Assembly (NCBI GenBank): GCA_000442015.1
Contig: KE561194.1
Location: forward strand, 1 to 31,682
Direction of reading: 5' to 3'
DNA: 31,682 nt
Source of the DNA: Rozella allomycis CSF55
Taxonomy: Eukaryota; Rozellomycota
Below are positions 2,370 to 22,010 of this stretch, piece by piece (positions within the stretch are counted from its first letter, which is position 1; every line of letters starts with the position of its first letter). Position numbers and translations under genes: made by a program. The notes below the pieces were generated by a model, which had not been told where the DNA came from, ran no database searches, and saw only the letters and a list, made by a program, of their open reading frames with translations.

Positions 2370-3314
2370 ATGAAAATATTTTGTTTGGCACTTATTTCCG
2401 TACTTTCTATTGTCTCATGTGAATTACTTCAGAAGTCTCTACGAAAAGTCTTGTATGCCACACCGAAATACACAAACACCCCGGAATGTCAACACTACGT
2501 CAAAGAAACCAGATCAAAGATACTGTATCATGAAAACAAAGCTTTCGGGATGGTCCAGTCATTTGAAGAAATGATAGAGATTACATTTCGAGGAACATAC
2601 GACCTTGATGATTGGAAGATCAATTTAAGAATGAAGGAAGCAATTGCAACTAATTTAACGAATATAAAAGTACATAAAGGTTTTTTAGAGAAAAGCATGA
2701 AATTATTGCCAATAGTGAAAAAGGCCATAAGTGACACACCGGGGTCTTCGAACAAAAAGCTCTTACTTACTGGGCATTCACAAGGAGGAGCATTAGCCAT
2801 TCTAATTGGCATGGCGCTTTACTTTGAAGACAAATCCTTGAATATGAAGATTGTGACATTTGGTTGCCCAAAAATATTTTACTCTGAAATCGACAAAATA
2901 TTTAACGACAAGATAACGCGAATAGAAGCTCCCCTAGATCCTGTTCCATTACTTCCTCCTTTTCTTAACCATGCCGGTAAACGTGTTGTAATTGGAGAAA
3001 CACCGAACCCTTACGTTTTCTACATTGTCAAATGGGCTTCATTGATTTCATTTAGTATCATTACACAGATGCTTAATCTCAGCACCGTCTCTAGCATAAC
3101 ACCGTCAATTGTAAAAATTCTCATAGAATCGAACGAGATAGAAAGTCTAAAATCAGCAAATTCCTTCATAACTGAAATGAAAATCATTTATCCAACTGCA
3201 TTATACATTATTGTGTTTTTTGCCTACTCCTTAATACAATTGCTAAAAGCACATCAGACTCGACGATACATGGCCGAATTACAGAATTCTCCGAACTTGA
3301 ACATTAAATATTAA
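2370..3314 (+). CDS. secreted or membrane-tethered class-3 lipase, paralog 2
   Basis: 314 residues, intronless. The signal peptide covers about 1-17 (LALISVLSIVSC). Class-3 lipase motifs: FRGTYDLDDW (73-82), HKGF (102-105), GHSQG with Ser137, and Asp190 in PLDPVPLLPP. The C-terminal catalytic His is His295, in AHQTRRY; it keeps the H-x4-Y spacing of the other two paralogs although the neighbouring residues differ. Unlike them it has a strongly hydrophobic segment (about 274-293) directly before that His, which could be a membrane anchor or part of a lid. It also lacks the first of the two N-terminal Cys residues seen in paralogs 1 and 3. It is the most diverged of the three, and activity is likely but less certain. 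Confidence 0.87.
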   Translation: MKIFCLALISVLSIVSCELLQKSLRKVLYATPKYTNTPECQHYVKETRSKILYHENKAFGMVQSFEEMIEITFRGTYDLDDWKINLRMKEAIATNLTNIKVHKGFLEKSMKLLPIVKKAISDTPGSSNKKLLLTGHSQGGALAILIGMALYFEDKSLNMKIVTFGCPKIFYSEIDKIFNDKITRIEAPLDPVPLLPPFLNHAGKRVVIGETPNPYVFYIVKWASLISFSIITQMLNLSTVSSITPSIVKILIESNEIESLKSANSFITEMKIIYPTALYIIVFFAYSLIQLLKAHQTRRYMAELQNSPNLNIKY

Positions 3315-4578: not shown

Positions 4579-5176
4579 CTATTTATTTGAATGTTTTTTG
4601 ATAAGCTTTAGCCATTGATATATACTTACATTCGCGTTATACGCCCTGGTATTTTTCGCTCTCACTTTATGAATCTGATTAATATATTCTTCGCTCGCAA
4701 ACATCTGTTTCTATGATAAATCATTACAAGCATTTTTACAATAATTATTTCCTTCAAATCCATATCCTGCTGGCTATTAGCATTTCCCAGTTTTTCCAAA
4801 ATCCCCTGATAATATTTTACACGCTCCTGTTCCTCTTCGACCAAGATCATGAGCCTCGCATTAATACTTTTGAGATGGTCCGCTCTCAAAGCTCTCTTCA
4901 CAAACGGTTTATCAATCGCCTTTCCGAGCTGATTCGGCACTATGAGCAAATCTGTCAGACTAAATGCATGTGAATTACCTTCAATACTGGCGGGCAGATG
5001 CTCAAACGAGTCGCCAAGGGGCCCGAACCGTGGGTGATACGCACCGCCGATTTTAGATCGAAGAACGAAAATTGGAAAAAATCGCTCGATTGCCTGTATG
5101 GGAGAAAAATAATGGTTACTGATTCGTCCTTGGAGTATGGCCGCAGATGTGGGATAATCTTTTTGTTGCGGTTCAT
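4579..5176 (-). CDS. unrecognised small basic protein, five exons
   Basis: A spliced model gives 163 residues: exons 5120-5176, 4979-5093, 4740-4951, 4630-4710 and 4579-4605, with introns of 26, 27, 29 and 24 nt in matching phases. The ATG at 5176 is the only one that joins cleanly to the long second exon. Parts of the last two introns are also open when retained, so the 3' end is less sure. The protein starts with a basic stretch (MNRNKKI), has a Phe/Pro/Gly-rich segment (ERFFPIFVLRSKIGGAYHP) and a long charged helix (about 85-120) that may form a coiled coil, and ends Lys-rich. I do not recognise the family. Size and composition would suit a mitochondrial ribosomal or assembly protein, but that is a guess. 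Confidence 0.55.
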
Positions 5177-5436: not shown

Positions 5437-8400
5437 ATGTCACTTTTTGAGCAAGAAGAAGACGCATTTTCCGCGTTCCAAGTGAGTTCAACCGACTACG
5501 TGGCACCAGTTCCACTTAAGCGCGGCACTGACGAAGAGATCTATCCGTTTCCCAAGAGCGCGCGCCTGTCTAAAGCGACGCAGGTGATGGATGAGTTTTC
5601 GACGCGGGTAATTTACTGTATAATGCTTCAATATAGGTAAAATAATTTTTTCATAATTATCTAGGTAAAATAATGTGGGAGAGATGAGCAGGTTGAGCGG
5701 GAGGTGCAAGAGGGCGAGAAAAAGTCTCAGATCACGCATAGTGTGCGCCACGAGGTAGCGATACCTGAGGGGTTTGAGTATGTGCCTTTGAGTGAGCATG
5801 AGAGTCCGAGTGAGCCTTTTCGGAGGTATCCGTTTACGCTTGATCCGTTCCAGCAGTGTAGTGTGAGTTGTATTGAGAGGAACGAGAGTGTGTTGGTGAG
5901 TGCGCATACATCAGGTAAGGGAGATTGAGTTTTTTGAGGAGGTATTTAATGGGGATGGTGGTAATGATAGCTGGAAAGACAGTGATTGCCGAGTATGCGA
6001 TTGCGATGGCGCTGAAGAAGAAGCAGCGGGTGATATATACGAGTCCGATCAAGGCTCTTAGTAACCAAAAGTACCGCGAGTTCCATCATGAGTTTGGCGA
6101 TGTTGGGTTGATGACTGGAGAAGTTACGATTAACCCAACTGCGTCGTGTTTGGTGATGACGACGGAGGTAAGAAAATAGAAAACAAGAGATAGATTTTGA
6201 GGAGTATGTTGTATAGGGGCAGTGAGGTGATGCGAGAAGTCGGATGGGTTGTGTTTGACGAGGTGCATTATATGAGAGACAAGGAGCGAGGAGTTGTTTG
6301 GGAGGAGACTCTTATCCTGTTGCCTGACCAGGTGCGGTATGTGTTCTTGTCGGCGACGATTCCGAATGCCAAGCAGTTTGCCGAGTGGATCTGTTGTGTG
6401 CACCACCAGCCGTGTCATGTGGTGTATACAGATTATAGGCCGACGCCGTTGCAGCATTATTTGTTTCCTGCTGGTGGCGATGGGATCCATTTGGCTGTAG
6501 ATGAGAAGGGTGTGTTTCGGGAGGATAATTTTGTGAAAGCGTTGAGTGTGTTGGGCGATGATACGGTGTTGGGAGGCAAGAAGAAAAGGAAGCCTACAAA
6601 GAATGGTAAAGAGAGTGATTGAAGAGTATAGGGCCTTCTGATTTGTTTAAGATTGTGAAGATGATAATGATGAAGAACTACCAGCCCGTTATAGTGTTTA
6701 GTTTTTCGAAAAAGGAGTGTGAGGCGAATGCGACGCAGATGTCAAAGTTGGATTTTAATGGTGAGGAGGAGAGGATGATGGTTGGCAAGATATTTAATAA
6801 TGCGATGGAGGCGTTGAGTGAGGATGATAGACAGTTGGCTCAGATTGAGAATATATTACCGTTTCTGAAGAGGGGGATTGGTATCCATCATTCAGGTGAG
6901 AGAGTATGTAAAGAAAGAAAGGATTGTTACCGATATTGAAGGAGGTGATAGAGTTGTTGTTTCAGGAGGGGTTGTTGAAGGTTTTGTTTGCGACTGAGAC
7001 GTTTTCGATTGGACTGAATATGCCAGCAAAGACTGTAGTGTTTACTAATTCGAGAAAGTTTGATGGAAGGGATTTTAGATGGATTAGCAGTGGAGAGTAT
7101 ATCCAGATGAGTGGGAGAGCTGGAAGGAGAGGGTTGGATGATAGAGGGATTGTTATATTGATGTTGGATGAGAAGATGGAGCCAACAGTAGCCAAGAACA
7201 TGATAAAGGTAATAGCATGTAGTTGTAGTGAAGACTAGGTAAGCAAGTAGTTCTAGTGAAGACTAGGTATTGAATTTAAATCAAATATAATAAAAGGGAC
7301 AAGCTGATGCATTGAATAGTGCTTTCCATTTGAGTTANCAAGCTGATGCATTGAATAGTGCATTCCATTTGAGTTATAATATGATATTGAATTTGATTAG
7401 AGTTGAAGTAATAGATGATTGAATGTTTGATGAAGGGGATGTCACCAGAAGATATTTTAGAGAAATCATTTTATCAATTCCAGAACAATGATTCATTGCC
7501 AAATTTGGAGAATCAGTTGAATGAGTTGATTGAAAGAAGAAAAGGATTGAAGATTGAACAAGAAGAAACAATTTCTGAATATTATGAAATAAAACAAGTA
7601 AAAGAGATTTAATATTGTAATGAAGCAATTGGAGGTGTTGAAGAAGGATTTTAAGATGATAATTCATCATCCCACGAATATTTTACCATTTTTGCAAGTT
7701 GGCAGATTGGTTAAAATAAAGCATGAAAATGATGATTTTGGATGGGGATGTTTGGTTAATTTTATTAGAAAGAAAAAGATTGAAAAAGACAAGGGTAATC
7801 TATTACAAGTATGATGATAGAAACAAGTGAGATTTATATAATAGAAGTCTTGTTGAATTGTCAAAAGAATTCAGCTATTCCAAAGCCTTGTTTAAATGAT
7901 AAAGGAGAGATGATTGTTGTTCCAGTTGTTTTGGAGAGTTTAGATGCTGTTTCTAAAGCGAGAGTTTATTTGCCAAAAGATTTAAAGAGTTATGAGAATA
8001 GGCAATCAATGTACAAGACAATTGAGCAAGTTAAAAAGAGACTAGGTAAGGAAGTGGGGGTTGTGTTTAACGTAGGTAAGAAGAAGTTAGTATAGTTAAA
8101 CTAGGTAATCTATTTCTTCTCTAACATTATTATAGGTAATTCATTCTACTTTCACCTCGATGTAAGGGACTATTCCATTGTTGGATCCAGTAAAGGATAT
8201 GAATATTCAAGATGAAAATTTAAAAAAATTAATAAAAAAGATGAACACGTTGGAAATTAAATTGGAAGAAAACAAACTCTTCAATTCTCCAAATCTTTCT
8301 TCAATTTATAATTCATTTGAAGAAAAAGTTAATTTAGAAAATGAAATCAAATTAATCAAAAATTTAATCAAACAAACAACGTGTATTCTTCACATGGATG

Positions 8401-9214
8401 AACTAAAATGCAGAAAGAGAGTTTTAAGAAGATTAGAATTCACAAGTCCATCTGATGTCATTGAAATCAAAGGTAACAGAAGTTTTGAAGGTTTCAACTT
8501 AGGTAACAGAGGTTTAAAGTTTCAACTTAGGTAACAGAGGTTGAAATAGTTAACCTCTAGGTACCAATCATTTCAACTCATAAATTCTAGGTACAAATCA
8601 TTTCAACTCTTAAATTCTAGGTACAAATCATTTCCTCTCATAAATTCTAGGTAGAGTAGCGTGCGAAATTAGCTCCGGTGATGAACTTTTATTAACTGAA
8701 TTGATCTTCAACGGCGCCTTCAATGATCTCACTGTAGATCAAATAAACGCTCTCCTCTCTTGTTTTGTCTTTCAAGAAAAATCTGAAGACAATTCAAAAC
8801 TAAAATCTGAATTAGCAAAACCTCTTAAACTATTACACGACACTGCCAGAAAAATAGCCCAAGTTTCAAAGGAATCAAAATTAAACATCAATGAAGAAGA
8901 CTATGTTAATTCTTTCAGACCTGAATTAATGGATGTTGTTTACGCTTGGTCTCAAGTAGATGTTTCAATTTGAAATTATTTAGGGTGCAAAGTTTTCGCA
9001 GATTTGTAAAATGACTGATGTGTTTGAAGGATCTATCATTAGATGCGTTAGAAGATTGGAAGAATTGTTGAGACAAATGACTATGGCTGCTAAATCTATC
9101 GGTAACACTGAACTAGAAAATAAGTTTGCTCAAGGTATTCAATAATTGTTTCTTTCAATAGGTATCAACAAGATTAAACGTGACATTGTTTTCACCAACT
9201 CTCTCTATCTATAA
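5437..9214 (+). CDS. MTR4: MTR4-type DExH RNA helicase of the nuclear exosome
   Basis: Fourteen exons encode about 998 residues once the overlap at N7338 is collapsed, the usual Mtr4 length. Mtr4 is the ATP-dependent 3'-5' helicase that feeds RNA to the nuclear exosome, in TRAMP and related complexes. Motifs in order: TSAGKT (Walker A, split by an intron at 5915-5970), FDEVHYMRD (DEVH box), [20 protein letters not shown] (motif VI), then the arch/KOW region ([11 protein letters not shown]) and the C-terminal helical bundle ending near [22 protein letters not shown] and LSATIPNA favour Mtr4 over Ski2. Exons: 5437-5607, 5692-5914, 5971-6167, 6194-6605, 6632-6895, 6922-7208, 7297-7407, 7436-7597, 7626-7794, 7821-8045, 8167-8472, 8651-8955, 8984-9134, 9162-9214. 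Five of the 13 introns are composite arrays. It converges on the forkhead gene, 134 bp away. Confidence 0.95.
5608..5691 (+). other. composite intron A of MTR4: three abutting GT-AG units
   Basis: Between FSTR and VEREVQEG lie 84 nt made of units 5608-5636 (29), 5637-5664 (28) and 5665-5691 (27). Each begins GTAA and ends AG, with no base between units. Units 2 and 3 share the start GTAAAATAAT. Unit 2 and unit 3 each bring in-frame stops if retained, and only removal of all three joins the exons in phase 0. Confidence 0.85.
5915..5970 (+). other. composite intron B of MTR4: two abutting GT-AG units
   Basis: A 56-nt intron splits the Walker A codon between TCAG and CTGGAAAG. It divides exactly into 5915-5941 (27 nt, GTAAGG...GAGGAG) and 5942-5970 (29 nt, GTATTT...GATAG). 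The two halves are not obviously similar, so shared ancestry of the units is not shown here, only the GT-AG modularity. Confidence 0.75.
7209..7296 (+). other. composite intron C of MTR4: three abutting units, two near-identical
   Basis: Between NMIK and GQADALN lie units 7209-7238 (30), 7239-7266 (28) and 7267-7296 (30). Units 1 and 2 share the tail TAGTGAAGACTAG and nearly all of the rest (two substitutions and a 2-nt indel), so unit 2 is a tandem copy of unit 1 with its ends exactly on the splice sites. Unit 3 is AT-rich and unrelated. Confidence 0.9.
7300..7376. repeat. 38-bp duplication flanking N7338 (contig overlap) inside an MTR4 exon
   Basis: Bases 7300-7337 and 7339-7376 both encode [13 protein letters not shown] and differ at one base. 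Mtr4 proteins have this segment once. Copy plus N is 39 nt, so a model that ignores the artefact stays in frame but carries a spurious 13-residue repeat. Confidence 0.9.
8046..8166 (+). other. composite intron D of MTR4: four abutting GT-AG units
   Basis: 121 nt separate KKRLG from [11 protein letters not shown] (phase 1). They divide into 8046-8075 (30), 8076-8104 (29), 8105-8135 (31) and 8136-8166 (31). Every unit starts GTAA and ends TAG or AAG. Units 1 and 2 start alike (GTAAG-AAG); units 3 and 4 are pyrimidine-rich and resemble each other in composition only. Confidence 0.85.
8473..8650 (+). other. composite intron E of MTR4: six abutting GT-AG units in two subfamilies
   Basis: 178 nt separate VIEIK and [11 protein letters not shown] (phase 1). 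Units: 8473-8502 (30), 8503-8530 (28), 8531-8560 (30), 8561-8590 (30), 8591-8620 (30), 8621-8650 (30). Units 1-3 begin GTAACAGA(A/G)G and units 1-2 end TTTCAACTTAG. Units 4-6 begin GTAC(A/C)AATCATTTC and end TAAATTCTAG, differing from each other at two or three of 30 positions. The downstream exon itself begins GTAGAG, so even the true acceptor is an AG|GT seam. This is the clearest case of whole-intron tandem amplification in the window. Confidence 0.93.
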
Positions 9215-10822: not shown

Positions 10823-11722
10823 ATGCTGAAAGGTTTTTCAAAACCAGCATTCGCACTCCTTTCACTATCATTGATGTTTGTCTATCTCATTAAGGTTAAT
10901 CGCAATGTGAAAAGTGAACTTGATGAACTAAAAACTCATTATGAAATGTTACAAATTGAATTGAAACAGACACAATCGTTGAAAGTGATAGAATCGAACC
11001 ATGTAAATGTGACAAGCATACCAAGACTTTACAAAAAGGAAAGAATTCATAATAGACGAAAGAATTATCAAACACAGCAAGATTCCATTAGAGTGTTTTC
11101 CTCATGCACAAAAAATGGCGTCATAGCAATTACAATAGATGATGGTCCTGGAGTCTCTACTAGTCGTATCCTTGATGTTTTTAAGAAATACAACTCCAAA
11201 GCAACATTTTTCTTTGTCGGAGTCAATTTTGAAAAGTACGGAAATATAATTAAACCTGCATTTGATGAAGGTCACTTGATTGCCTCTCACACTTGGAGTC
11301 ACATAGACTTTTCTGAATCAACAGATGATAAAATAAAAGAAGAAATTGGTAAGAATAATAATGGCTTTAGAAACCTCATCCGTGCAGTTCCTAGATATAT
11401 TAGACCACCATACGGCACATTTACTCACAATGCTGGTAGAATTTTAAAAGAAATGGGTTTCGAGGCAGCCGTTCGTTGGGATTACGATACTAGAGATTGG
11501 GATACTAATCAATCATCAAATGTTGTGTCTTCATTTCAGAGGATTTTTGACAGCAAGCCTGAAAACTCCTCGTTTCTTGTTTTAATGCACGATATGGAAC
11601 ATTCAGCCGAAGCTTTAAGTTTAATAGTACCCAAATTAGTTGAAAAAGGATATAAACTGGTGAGAGTTGACGAGTGTTTGGGGATCCCCGAGTCCAGAGC
11701 GTATAAATACGAAGAATTATAG
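10823..11722 (+). CDS. membrane-anchored polysaccharide (chitin) deacetylase, CE4/NodB family
   Basis: 299 residues, intronless. Residues 8-24 are a hydrophobic signal anchor, followed by a helical, probably coiled-coil stem (about 28-55) and a basic linker, so the enzyme is likely a type II membrane protein facing the lumen or cell surface. The NodB domain (about 99-285) keeps the five CE4 motifs: TIDDGPG (catalytic base Asp106, metal ligand Asp107), SHTWSH (metal ligands His156, His160), RPPYG, YDTRDW, and LMHD with the catalytic His256. Family members remove acetyl groups from chitin or related polymers, and all key residues are present. Its neighbours are a secreted lipase downstream and the forkhead gene upstream. 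Substrate is inferred, not shown. Confidence 0.92.
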   Translation: MLKGFSKPAFALLSLSLMFVYLIKVNRNVKSELDELKTHYEMLQIELKQTQSLKVIESNHVNVTSIPRLYKKERIHNRRKNYQTQQDSIRVFSSCTKNGVIAITIDDGPGVSTSRILDVFKKYNSKATFFFVGVNFEKYGNIIKPAFDEGHLIASHTWSHIDFSESTDDKIKEEIGKNNNGFRNLIRAVPRYIRPPYGTFTHNAGRILKEMGFEAAVRWDYDTRDWDTNQSSNVVSSFQRIFDSKPENSSFLVLMHDMEHSAEALSLIVPKLVEKGYKLVRVDECLGIPESRAYKYEEL

Positions 11723-11823
11723 TCAATAAAATAAATAAATTTGCAGATTTTCATTTTATACGATGCTACTTTTTTTGTTGTTTATCTGAGATTTGGTGGC
11801 GCAATAATTAAGTGGCACAGCAG

Positions 11824-12756
11824 ATGCAAATATTTTCACTAGCTCTTCTTTTCTGTATCTCCAGCATATTCGCATTTGAAAATGTTTCGCGCTCTGTTAA
11901 AAATATACGATGCGCTTATCCCAAATTTTATCAGACACCGGAGTGTGTAGATTACATTCAAACAACAAAGTCCATGGTGATGCTATACAAAACTATTCCA
12001 TTTGCTCTAGTTCAATATACAGAAGTAGAACTAGAAATAGCTTTTAGAGGAAGCTCGACTGTAGATGACTGGGTTGTAAACCTCAGTTTGCTGTCTGCTG
12101 AACTCGAGCCCGCCATCATGCAAGGAAACATTACGGTTCACAGTGGGTTCTATAAAAAGTCACTTAAACTACTGCCTTCTGTTAAAACTGCTATTAATAC
12201 ATTTAGGTCTATGTATCAGATTGATAGATATGTGTTTTCAGGTCATTCACAAGGAGGTGCTTTGGCTGTGATCACATCGCTGTTGGTGAAAGACTGGTTC
12301 CTGGAGCTTAACGAACACTTTAATTTTGTTGTATATACTTTTGGTTCTCCTAAATTGTTTTTTGGTGATATTTCGCAGGAAGTTCATGATAAAATCTACA
12401 GGTTCATAACCCCCAGTGACCCAGTGCCGGAGCTCCCGCCTCTTATGAACCATGGTGGCAAAGAAATAGTGCTGTCAAAATCAAAAACTACTTCAAGAGT
12501 CCTTAAAACTCTAAAGAAATTTGTGATCTCCATATCAATGGGCGTAGCGTTGAACACCGTTACTTCATACATTAATTTTCCACCAAAGGAAAATGATAAA
12601 GATGAGAAAAAAGAACAAAGCTTGTCTAAGGTATTTAATGGAATTGCCACTGGTGTCGGTATTGTCGCTCTTGCAAAAATGTTGATCCAAGATCATTTAA
12701 CGCCGGCATATGAAAAAGCAGTCAAAAAGTTTGTTGACAGGTTAAAAATATATTAA
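11824..12756 (+). CDS. secreted class-3 lipase, paralog 3
   Basis: 310 residues, intronless. The frame is open from a GTG at 11812, but the first ATG is 11824, which starts directly at a signal peptide (MQIFSLALLFCISSIFAF). Motifs: FRGSSTVDDW (74-83), HSGFY (106-110), GHSQG with Ser142, Asp199 in PSDPVPELPP, and His291 in DHLTPAYEK, each aligning with paralog 1. The Cys30/Cys41 pair near the N terminus also matches paralog 1. It sits about 8.5 kb from the other two lipases, separated by MTR4, the forkhead gene and the deacetylase, so the family is dispersed locally rather than one array. TGGCGC occurs at 11797-11802, about 21 bp before the ATG. Confidence 0.91.
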   Translation: MQIFSLALLFCISSIFAFENVSRSVKNIRCAYPKFYQTPECVDYIQTTKSMVMLYKTIPFALVQYTEVELEIAFRGSSTVDDWVVNLSLLSAELEPAIMQGNITVHSGFYKKSLKLLPSVKTAINTFRSMYQIDRYVFSGHSQGGALAVITSLLVKDWFLELNEHFNFVVYTFGSPKLFFGDISQEVHDKIYRFITPSDPVPELPPLMNHGGKEIVLSKSKTTSRVLKTLKKFVISISMGVALNTVTSYINFPPKENDKDEKKEQSLSKVFNGIATGVGIVALAKMLIQDHLTPAYEKAVKKFVDRLKIY

Positions 12757-21101: not shown

Positions 21102-21455
21102 TTAACGCCCAAGAACGTCATTACGAGTAGTTTCAGCAATAGCAAGAATGGAATCAATATGTTCGGAATTGACTTTCAAGTCTTTCATAGCATCTCCAAG
21201 AGTGCGAATGACAGTGTCAAAGTGTGCGTCAGTTAATTTCAATTTAGCATGAGCAGCTTTCATCGATTTGCCATTGTATGGTTTTCCGCCAAGTACATGG
21301 TTGAGAAAGCTCTTTTGCATTCTTCTTTGTTTATTCATATCTGTGTTAGCGAATATAAGTGCAACCGATTCATTTTGTAGGAGTTTGGAATAAAACAGTT
21401 CGACAACAGCGTCAATTGCCTTTTCACCTCCAATTTGTTCGTATAAACTTGCCAT
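21102..21455 (-). CDS. truncated (2/2) hemoglobin, group 1, copy A
   Basis: 117 residues, intronless. Group 1 features: the N-terminal LYEQIGGEKAIDAVVELFY with the Phe-Tyr pair of the B helix, a Gly-Gly loop (VLGGKPYNGKSM), and AAHAKLKLTDAHFD carrying the proximal His. Such globins bind O2 and NO; roles in NO detoxification or O2 sensing are known for relatives but cannot be told apart here. It lies tail to head with copy B (about 84% identical protein), 201 bp apart, so the pair is a recent tandem duplication. Differences cluster in residues 23-33. The promoter has TTTTGGCGCCA about 38 bp upstream and a TCACGTGA palindrome. Confidence 0.93.
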   Translation of the reverse strand: MASLYEQIGGEKAIDAVVELFYSKLLQNESVALIFANTDMNKQRRMQKSFLNHVLGGKPYNGKSMKAAHAKLKLTDAHFDTVIRTLGDAMKDLKVNSEHIDSILAIAETTRNDVLGR

Positions 21456-21656: not shown

Positions 21657-22010
21657 TTAGCGTCCCAGAACATCATTACGTGTGGTCTCTGCGACAGCAA
21701 GTATAGAATCAATATGTTGTGGACTTACTTTTAATTCCTTCATTGCTTCTCCCAAAGTTCGGATGACAGTGTCAAAGTGTGCGTCAGTCAGCTTCAATCT
21801 AGCATGCGCAGCTTTCATGGATTTGCCATTGTATGGTTTTCCGCCTAGAACATGATTGAGAAAACTTTTTTGCATTCTTCTTTGTTTATTCATGTCAGTG
21901 TTGGCGAATATGGGGATCATGGTGTCCACTTTTAACAATTTAGTGTAAAAAAGCTCAACTACAGCATCAATCGCCTTTTCTCCTCCAATTTCGTCGTAAA
22001 GATTGGTCAT
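21657..22010 (-). CDS. truncated (2/2) hemoglobin, group 1, copy B
   Basis: 117 residues, intronless, the same length as copy A and identical to it over the core NTDMNKQRRMQKSFLNHVLG and the segment that follows. The Phe-Tyr pair (ELFY), the Gly-Gly loop and the His in AAHARLKLTDAHFD are kept, so heme binding should be intact. Relative to copy A it differs at 19 positions, concentrated in the B-C region (TKLLKVDTMIPIF against SKLLQNESVALIF), the part that shapes the distal pocket entry and CD corner, so ligand properties may have diverged. It lies upstream of copy A on the same strand. Confidence 0.93.
   Translation of the reverse strand: MTNLYDEIGGEKAIDAVVELFYTKLLKVDTMIPIFANTDMNKQRRMQKSFLNHVLGGKPYNGKSMKAAHARLKLTDAHFDTVIRTLGEAMKELKVSPQHIDSILAVAETTRNDVLGR

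Follow-up and report, generated by a model that had tools for sequence, protein, structure and literature searches.

In the MTR4 gene of Rozella allomycis CSF55, which encodes the exosome RNA helicase, two exons are separated by 178 nt of noncoding sequence in a gene whose other introns can be as short as 26 nt. This locus raises the question of how such an intron arose and how it is removed. The window, the whole stretch of DNA analysed here, comprises 31,682 nucleotides (GenBank assembly GCA_000442015.1, contig KE561194.1, forward strand), and coordinates refer to it unless another locus is named. Positions 8473-8650, the focal array, consist of six contiguous GT..AG units of 30, 28, 30, 30, 30, and 30 nt, with no bases between any two of them and hence five juxtaposed AG/GT joints (slash, splice boundary):

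8473..8502, plus strand, focal array unit 1, 30 nt
8503..8530, plus strand, focal array unit 2, 28 nt
8531..8560, plus strand, focal array unit 3, 30 nt
8561..8590, plus strand, focal array unit 4, 30 nt
8591..8620, plus strand, focal array unit 5, 30 nt
8621..8650, plus strand, focal array unit 6, 30 nt

The preliminary description of this DNA had read the intron as six end-to-end units in two groups, and this anatomy holds. Units 4 to 6 are near-identical, with 28/30, 27/30, and 27/30 positions in common pairwise, and units 1 to 3 form a second group with pairwise identities of 26/30, 23/30, and 21/31. The register of the copies coincides with the splice sites, the complete intron being what repeats, and no coding sequence lies between the exons encoding VIEIK and GRVACE, which excision of the array joins without a gap relative to human MTR4. 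The upstream exon ends ATTGAAATCAAAG and the downstream exon, which has 1 match in the genome, begins GTAGAGTAGCG. Units from different groups share 16 to 20 of about 31 positions, nearly what is seen when units are taken from separate arrays; as judged by sequence comparison, units 1-3 and units 4-6 have no detectable kinship, and a single founder of the array is therefore not established. When the array was subjected to dinucleotide shuffling with its first four and last three bases held fixed, 1/20000 shuffles parsed into GT..AG units of 23-34 nt. Units 1-3 contain inner AGGT motifs, and cutting at every AGGT splits them too finely. Unit 1 (8473-8502) has no in-frame stop over its 30 nt, and its sole retention would insert ten residues; keeping the first two to six units introduces stops. 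The array is free of N, the nearest being at 7338, and its copy number is as given by the assembly, whose method is not stated.

The remainder of the gene was interpreted from its spliced reading, which aligns to human MTR4 (6d6q) across residues 30-1013, and with an abutting-intron finder that accepts units of 20-36 nt. The 13 introns measure, in order, 81, 56, 26, 26, 26, 88, 28, 28, 23 (or 26), 121, 178, 28, and 27 nt, and comprise five arrays (of 3, 2, 3, 4, and 6 units) and eight solo introns:

5437..9214, plus strand, MTR4 gene from start to stop codon, 13 intron positions, from the spliced reading and alignment to human MTR4
5608..5688, plus strand, three-unit array, last unit possibly ending at 5691 (also AG); 17/5000 shuffles split alike
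5915..5970, plus strand, two-unit array, 27 + 29 nt, weak alone (489/5000 shuffles split alike)
6168..6193, plus strand, solo intron, 26 nt, spliced reading and finder
6606..6631, plus strand, solo intron, 26 nt, spliced reading and finder; Rozella protein record P0097 has another border
6896..6921, plus strand, solo intron, 26 nt, spliced reading and finder
7209..7296, plus strand, three-unit array, 30 + 28 + 30 nt, the first two units similar; 20/5000 shuffles
7408..7435, plus strand, solo intron, 28 nt, spliced reading and finder
7598..7625, plus strand, solo intron, 28 nt, spliced reading and finder
7795..7831, plus strand, solo intron with two readings, 26 nt (7795-7820) from the finder or 23 nt (7809-7831) from the manual reading
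8046..8166, plus strand, four-unit array, 30 + 29 + 31 + 31 nt, units mutually unlike; 12/5000 shuffles; last three units caught by the finder
8956..8983, plus strand, solo intron, 28 nt, spliced reading and finder
9135..9161, plus strand, solo intron, 27 nt, spliced reading; no finder call here

The spliced MTR4 has, over 60% of its length, a 97% match to P0097, a partial R. allomycis CSF55 protein; the differences, by reading, are limited to one intron border (KER inserted), the last residue, and the assembly repeat. The N at 7338 is an assembly joint flanked by a duplicated 38-nt stretch of MTR4 exon (7299-7376), the copies differing at one base. Single N's stand elsewhere in the window at 290, 4552, 14172, 19504, 22287, 23817, and 31390; such N's often have a repeat on either side, a pattern suggestive of a joint between contig ends that overlap or are allelic, and at some of them no repeat was found.

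Across the sampled loci the finder returned 203 clusters, 145 of them with coding support on both sides, and it replaced an earlier 20-36 nt version whose full per-unit penalty shortened arrays. In MTR4 it extended the focal array past 8650 to 8656 and missed unit 1 of 8046-8166 and all of 5915-5970; because of these misreadings, the three arrays were entered by hand. After duplicate removal, the comparison set contained 34 arrays (107 units), one of which (L013:1503) may be a coding repeat, and 110 solos. This sample is deliberately array-rich, with some loci fetched by the array pattern.

Genome-wide counts over the assembly (213 contigs totalling 9,970,177 bases, with the window as contig C183) reveal that such arrays recur. 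AGGTA pairs number 451 at a spacing of 26-32 nt versus 85 at 37-43 nt. The reversed motif, a different motif with its own abundance that serves only to show the absence of a spacing step, gives 494 versus 478. AGGTA-type triples number 183, and the reversed pattern 83. Subtracting triples from pairs, less the off-period number, yields very roughly 180 arrays of at least three units, an estimate that leaves two-unit arrays outside the count and in which the pattern spacings differ slightly and the triples carry their own background. The preliminary description had dealt with the focal array by itself; its anatomy stands but its scope does not, with the focal array being one of five in MTR4 and one of this larger number genome-wide.

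The distribution of the arrays is uneven. The loci read include 50 kb around array clusters (L034-L038) and 7 kb of L049. In six array-rich stretches, AGGTA spacings fall 91 times at 27-31 nt, 0 times at 22-26 nt, and once at 32-36 nt, with echoes at 57-61 nt (53) and 87-91 nt (27), and four permuted motifs gave no comparable spacing peak in these stretches. In 108 kb chosen array-blind (L039-L048, L050), a single AGGTA spacing falls at 27-31 nt. The array-aware finder identified 22 confident introns in that sample, 22/22 of them solo, along with one low-scoring two-unit call in L039, where the motif-blind scan described below points to a likely two-unit array at 5087-5155. Arrays are thus rare overall and concentrated in certain hot genes, including those for Sec7 (L034), glycogen debrancher (L035), HYDIN-like protein (L036, L038), TOP2 (L037), and Prp8 (L049). 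In the Prp8 and glycogen debrancher genes the exons on either side of the arrays match one family. Two TOP2 arrays, the first flanked by TDQ and DHDGSH and the second by KYYK and GLGTS, are at positions where the alignment to yeast Top2 shows no insertion. The MTR4 and TOP2 alignments pass through the array positions with conserved protein continuous across GT..AG ends, as in spliceosomal GT-AG introns. One U6 and one U2 spliceosomal RNA gene were found. Prp8, a core protein of the spliceosome, is itself encoded by a gene bearing mini-intron arrays.

Intron length was assessed with a separate finder that uses a smooth length prior and is blind to units. The invariant GT and AG were removed from its splice scores, and earlier self-trained scores (2493 and 3175 introns in rounds 2 and 3) were discarded. 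It called 150 introns, 119 of which have coding support on both sides: 74 are 26-32 nt long (68 of these 26-29 nt), 3 are shorter, and 42 are at least 40 nt. Of all 56 called introns of at least 40 nt, supported or not, 20 can be divided without remainder into GT..AG units of 23-34 nt. The other 36 have no unit split, which counts against the intron-minisatellite reading given below; by reading, they are N joints or fragments of arrays, coding sequence mistaken for intron, and an unassigned rest, and a few may be genuine longer introns. Array lengths, 55-178 nt, are multiples of about 29 nt, and solos are mostly 26-29 nt.

We regard it as fairly probable that the arrays are intron minisatellites, in which exact duplicates of an intron are probably spliced out one or a few units at a time. 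Minisatellites are head-to-tail repeats with a unit of roughly 10-60 nt, and the array units, mostly 28-31 nt, are likewise arranged head to tail. The anatomy and recurrence of the arrays are firm, single-unit splicing is likely from the sequence evidence, and duplication by slippage or unequal exchange is what we infer. The process would start from an ordinary spliceosomal intron of ~27 nt flanked by short direct repeats (exon ..AG/GTA ... AG/G.. exon). Slippage or unequal exchange would copy exactly one intron, and the new AG/GT joint would amount to a zero-length exon. Any joining of GTi to AGj would then leave a legal shorter array and an identical final exon junction. Because this junction would be the same whichever sites pair, the protein would be unchanged and the array free to grow, shrink, and diverge. 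Removal unit by unit is probable because every partial splice would give the same exon junction; that units would leave singly or a few together is made probable by an apparent tuning of the splicing machinery to introns of ~26-31 nt. One feature is not predicted by the intron-minisatellite model: array units are longer on average than solos (29.1 vs 27.5 nt; p 1.6e-10 treating units as independent, which they are not) and also longer than solos in AG/../G context (27.5 nt, n=13).

The main rival explanation, which we consider unlikely, is splicing in a single step: the tandem repeat would be part of one intron running from the array's first GT to its last AG, and the internal sites would be skipped passengers of recent duplication. 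PMC4974935, citing Zhu and Niu (2013), reports a precedent for such splicing, fission-yeast ESTs in which 24-bp AGGT duplicates, four in one case and two in another, are spanned by a single intron. Some array units are also near-identical and may be young. Alignment cannot separate the two modes of removal because the protein is identical either way. The internal sites, in contrast, argue against one-step splicing, as they remain intact even between unlike units. In the 23/73 neighbour pairs that are seemingly unrelated, donor position +4 is A in 19 and acceptor position -3 is T or A in 21, compared with 84/110 and 97/110 of solos. Differences between the members of 26 alike pairs fall at +4 in 1, at positions +5 to +8 in 28/104, and in the core in 94/559. 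A motif-blind scan that used only the period found 54 tandem repeats, and AGGT pairs are in register in 19/19 of those with a period of 28, 29, or 31, in 9/18 with a period of 30, and in 2/17 with the remaining periods. The nine period-30 repeats without AGGT pairs include five in called coding exons, one that is the L039 array (unequal units), two in L046, and one in L017.

Acceptors point in the same direction: TAG ends 57/73 non-last units, 12/34 last units, and 54/110 solos, making it commoner at internal than at terminal acceptors. These internal-site counts lean upward because the finder and parse favour good splice sites, and the GT and AG of units are fixed by the parse itself. When units were chained by AGGT joints without requiring T, T still occupied -3 in 68% of internal units versus 49% of solos. 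Internal sites that are better, and not decayed, nonetheless speak against their being passengers. One-step splicing would also yield introns of 55-178 nt in a genome where supported introns are mostly 26-29 nt. A branch-like T[TC]AA[TC] motif occurs in 40/107 array units (18.5 expected), of which those from the same array are not independent, versus 16/110 solos (15.4 expected). Its occurrence in 29/73 non-last and 11/34 last units shows no clear difference, which counts against unit-by-unit removal. The reading frame through a retained intron is open in 0/110 solos and 6/95 array units, a comparison that is void, as the finder would take such introns for exon.

Origin by local duplication is supported by neighbouring units and by flanks. 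Similarity beyond the 95% level set by cross-array pairs is seen in 32/73 neighbour pairs, as tandem duplication predicts. The AG/../G context surrounds 26/34 arrays versus 17/110 solos, or 16/24 versus 13/100 when possibly shortened arrays are excluded. It means that AGG is repeated at both intron ends, which would fit exact duplication by slippage or unequal exchange. Two copies of TOP2 sequence across an N joint differ at 1/196 exon bases and 1/29 solo-intron bases, and their adjoining arrays have 3 units versus 4 complete units and a fragment, and 3 units and a fragment versus 5. At an N joint in the Sec7 gene, unlike arrays precede an identical 44-nt exon stretch. The TOP2 and Sec7 copies may be alleles, or they may be a joining artefact of the assembly.

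Successive introner-like insertion of distinct introns at an existing splice junction would account for the unrelated neighbour pairs noted above and for the two unlike groups of focal units, 1-3 and 4-6. We consider it very improbable, as introner elements are similar copies dispersed across many genes and dispersed copies were not found: the focal unit pattern with ≤2 mismatches has 3 genome matches, all inside the focal array, and the best cross-array identity in the 34 arrays is 0.77, where AT-rich unrelated pairs reach 0.67 at the 99% level. The excess similarity of neighbours is, in addition, what local duplication predicts. Least probable of all, and scarcely credible, is an assembly artefact in which joined or repeated contig ends multiply a single intron, for although single-N joints with repeated flanks exist (the 38-nt repeat in MTR4, and others within the Sec7 and TOP2 arrays), the repeats at these joints differ in length from the units and include exons, while arrays are in splice register with diverged units of 27-31 nt and the focal array lacks N.

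Returning to intron minisatellites, a stronger form of the model can be proposed, on which our judgement is evenly balanced. The Rozella spliceosome would have an upper size limit near 31-36 nt, and as a consequence introns would lengthen only by whole units. Intron length would be quantised, every long intron would be an intron minisatellite whose splicing has to pass through zero-length exons, in whatever order, and intron gain by exact duplication would be continuing and polymorphic, even in the Prp8 gene.

The preliminary description also stated that nothing like the array was known, a claim that needs limiting, as Drosophila ratchet points, an intron-containing repeat in Cryptococcus, and fission-yeast AGGT duplicates are partial parallels. 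Drosophila ratchet points share the juxtaposed AG/GT, an apparent zero-nucleotide exon within an intron, and their stepwise removal leaves no trace in mRNA (PMC8605326). They differ in lying mostly in long introns and in being said to need a downstream cryptic exon (PMC8605326), whereas the Rozella units of ~29 nt abut in arrays of only 55-178 nt, not in long introns, and their stepwise removal is presumed from sequence features. Fungal stwintrons likewise place several intron units at one intron position and are removed by consecutive reactions, but they are nested, with one intron in or near the donor of another (PMC7138796). Rozella units lie side by side, and those of the focal array run unbroken from GT to AG and abut one another, with no internal intron interrupting a splice element of an external one. 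In intron gain by tandem duplication of AGGT segments, the copies supply AG and GT, and the cited fission-yeast cases have several 24-bp copies; however, an exonic segment is copied and one intron spans the copies (PMC4974935), while in Rozella the whole intron is copied and each copy has a normal intron length for the genome. In Cryptococcus CNN00420, an expanding, strain-variable repeat multiplies introns, but this repeat of ~107 nt includes exon ends and multiplies exons as well (PMC2395259), and no exon lies between the Rozella copies. Paramecium has similarly short introns of about 25 nt with a narrow length range, although its available text describes no tandem arrays and lacks the word 'tandem' (PMC5014332). 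For Rozella itself, 2.5 introns per kb are reported in a paper whose available text lacks the term 'tandem duplication' (PMC8476143), and the word 'intron' is absent from a paper on a Rozella relative (PMC5701793). A literature search by title and the start of the abstract, mostly outside subscription journals and not covering the 2013 Rozella genome paper, found no description of tandem mini-intron arrays.

If this interpretation is correct, the many arrays of two to six units would form a replicated experiment of nature on recursive splicing and on the way a spliceosome gauges intron size. They would also capture intron multiplication seemingly in the act, with the intron itself copied, likely microhomology in the flanks, and a number of units that apparently differs from one copy of a locus to another. 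Array genes will be misread by gene finders that assume one intron between two exons.

Several other features of the array genes and the window were observed. In array genes (window 5700-8100; L034, L035, L036, L037, L049), GC skew is strongly positive (0.3-0.7) over the first kilobases and falls to ~0, often near arrays. Mean GC skew is 0.29 in array genes (n=7) versus 0.15 in array-free genes (n=40; p 0.044), and the drop in skew is 0.10 at arrays versus 0.03 at solos, a weak difference (p 0.075; within-locus permutation p 0.034). The window also contains three class 3 lipase genes on the plus strand (1233-2228, 2370-3314, and 11812-12756), the first two adjacent, and with these a polysaccharide deacetylase gene (10823-11722). 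Two adjacent genes for bacterial-like (truncated) globins lie on the minus strand at 21102-21455 and 21657-22010.
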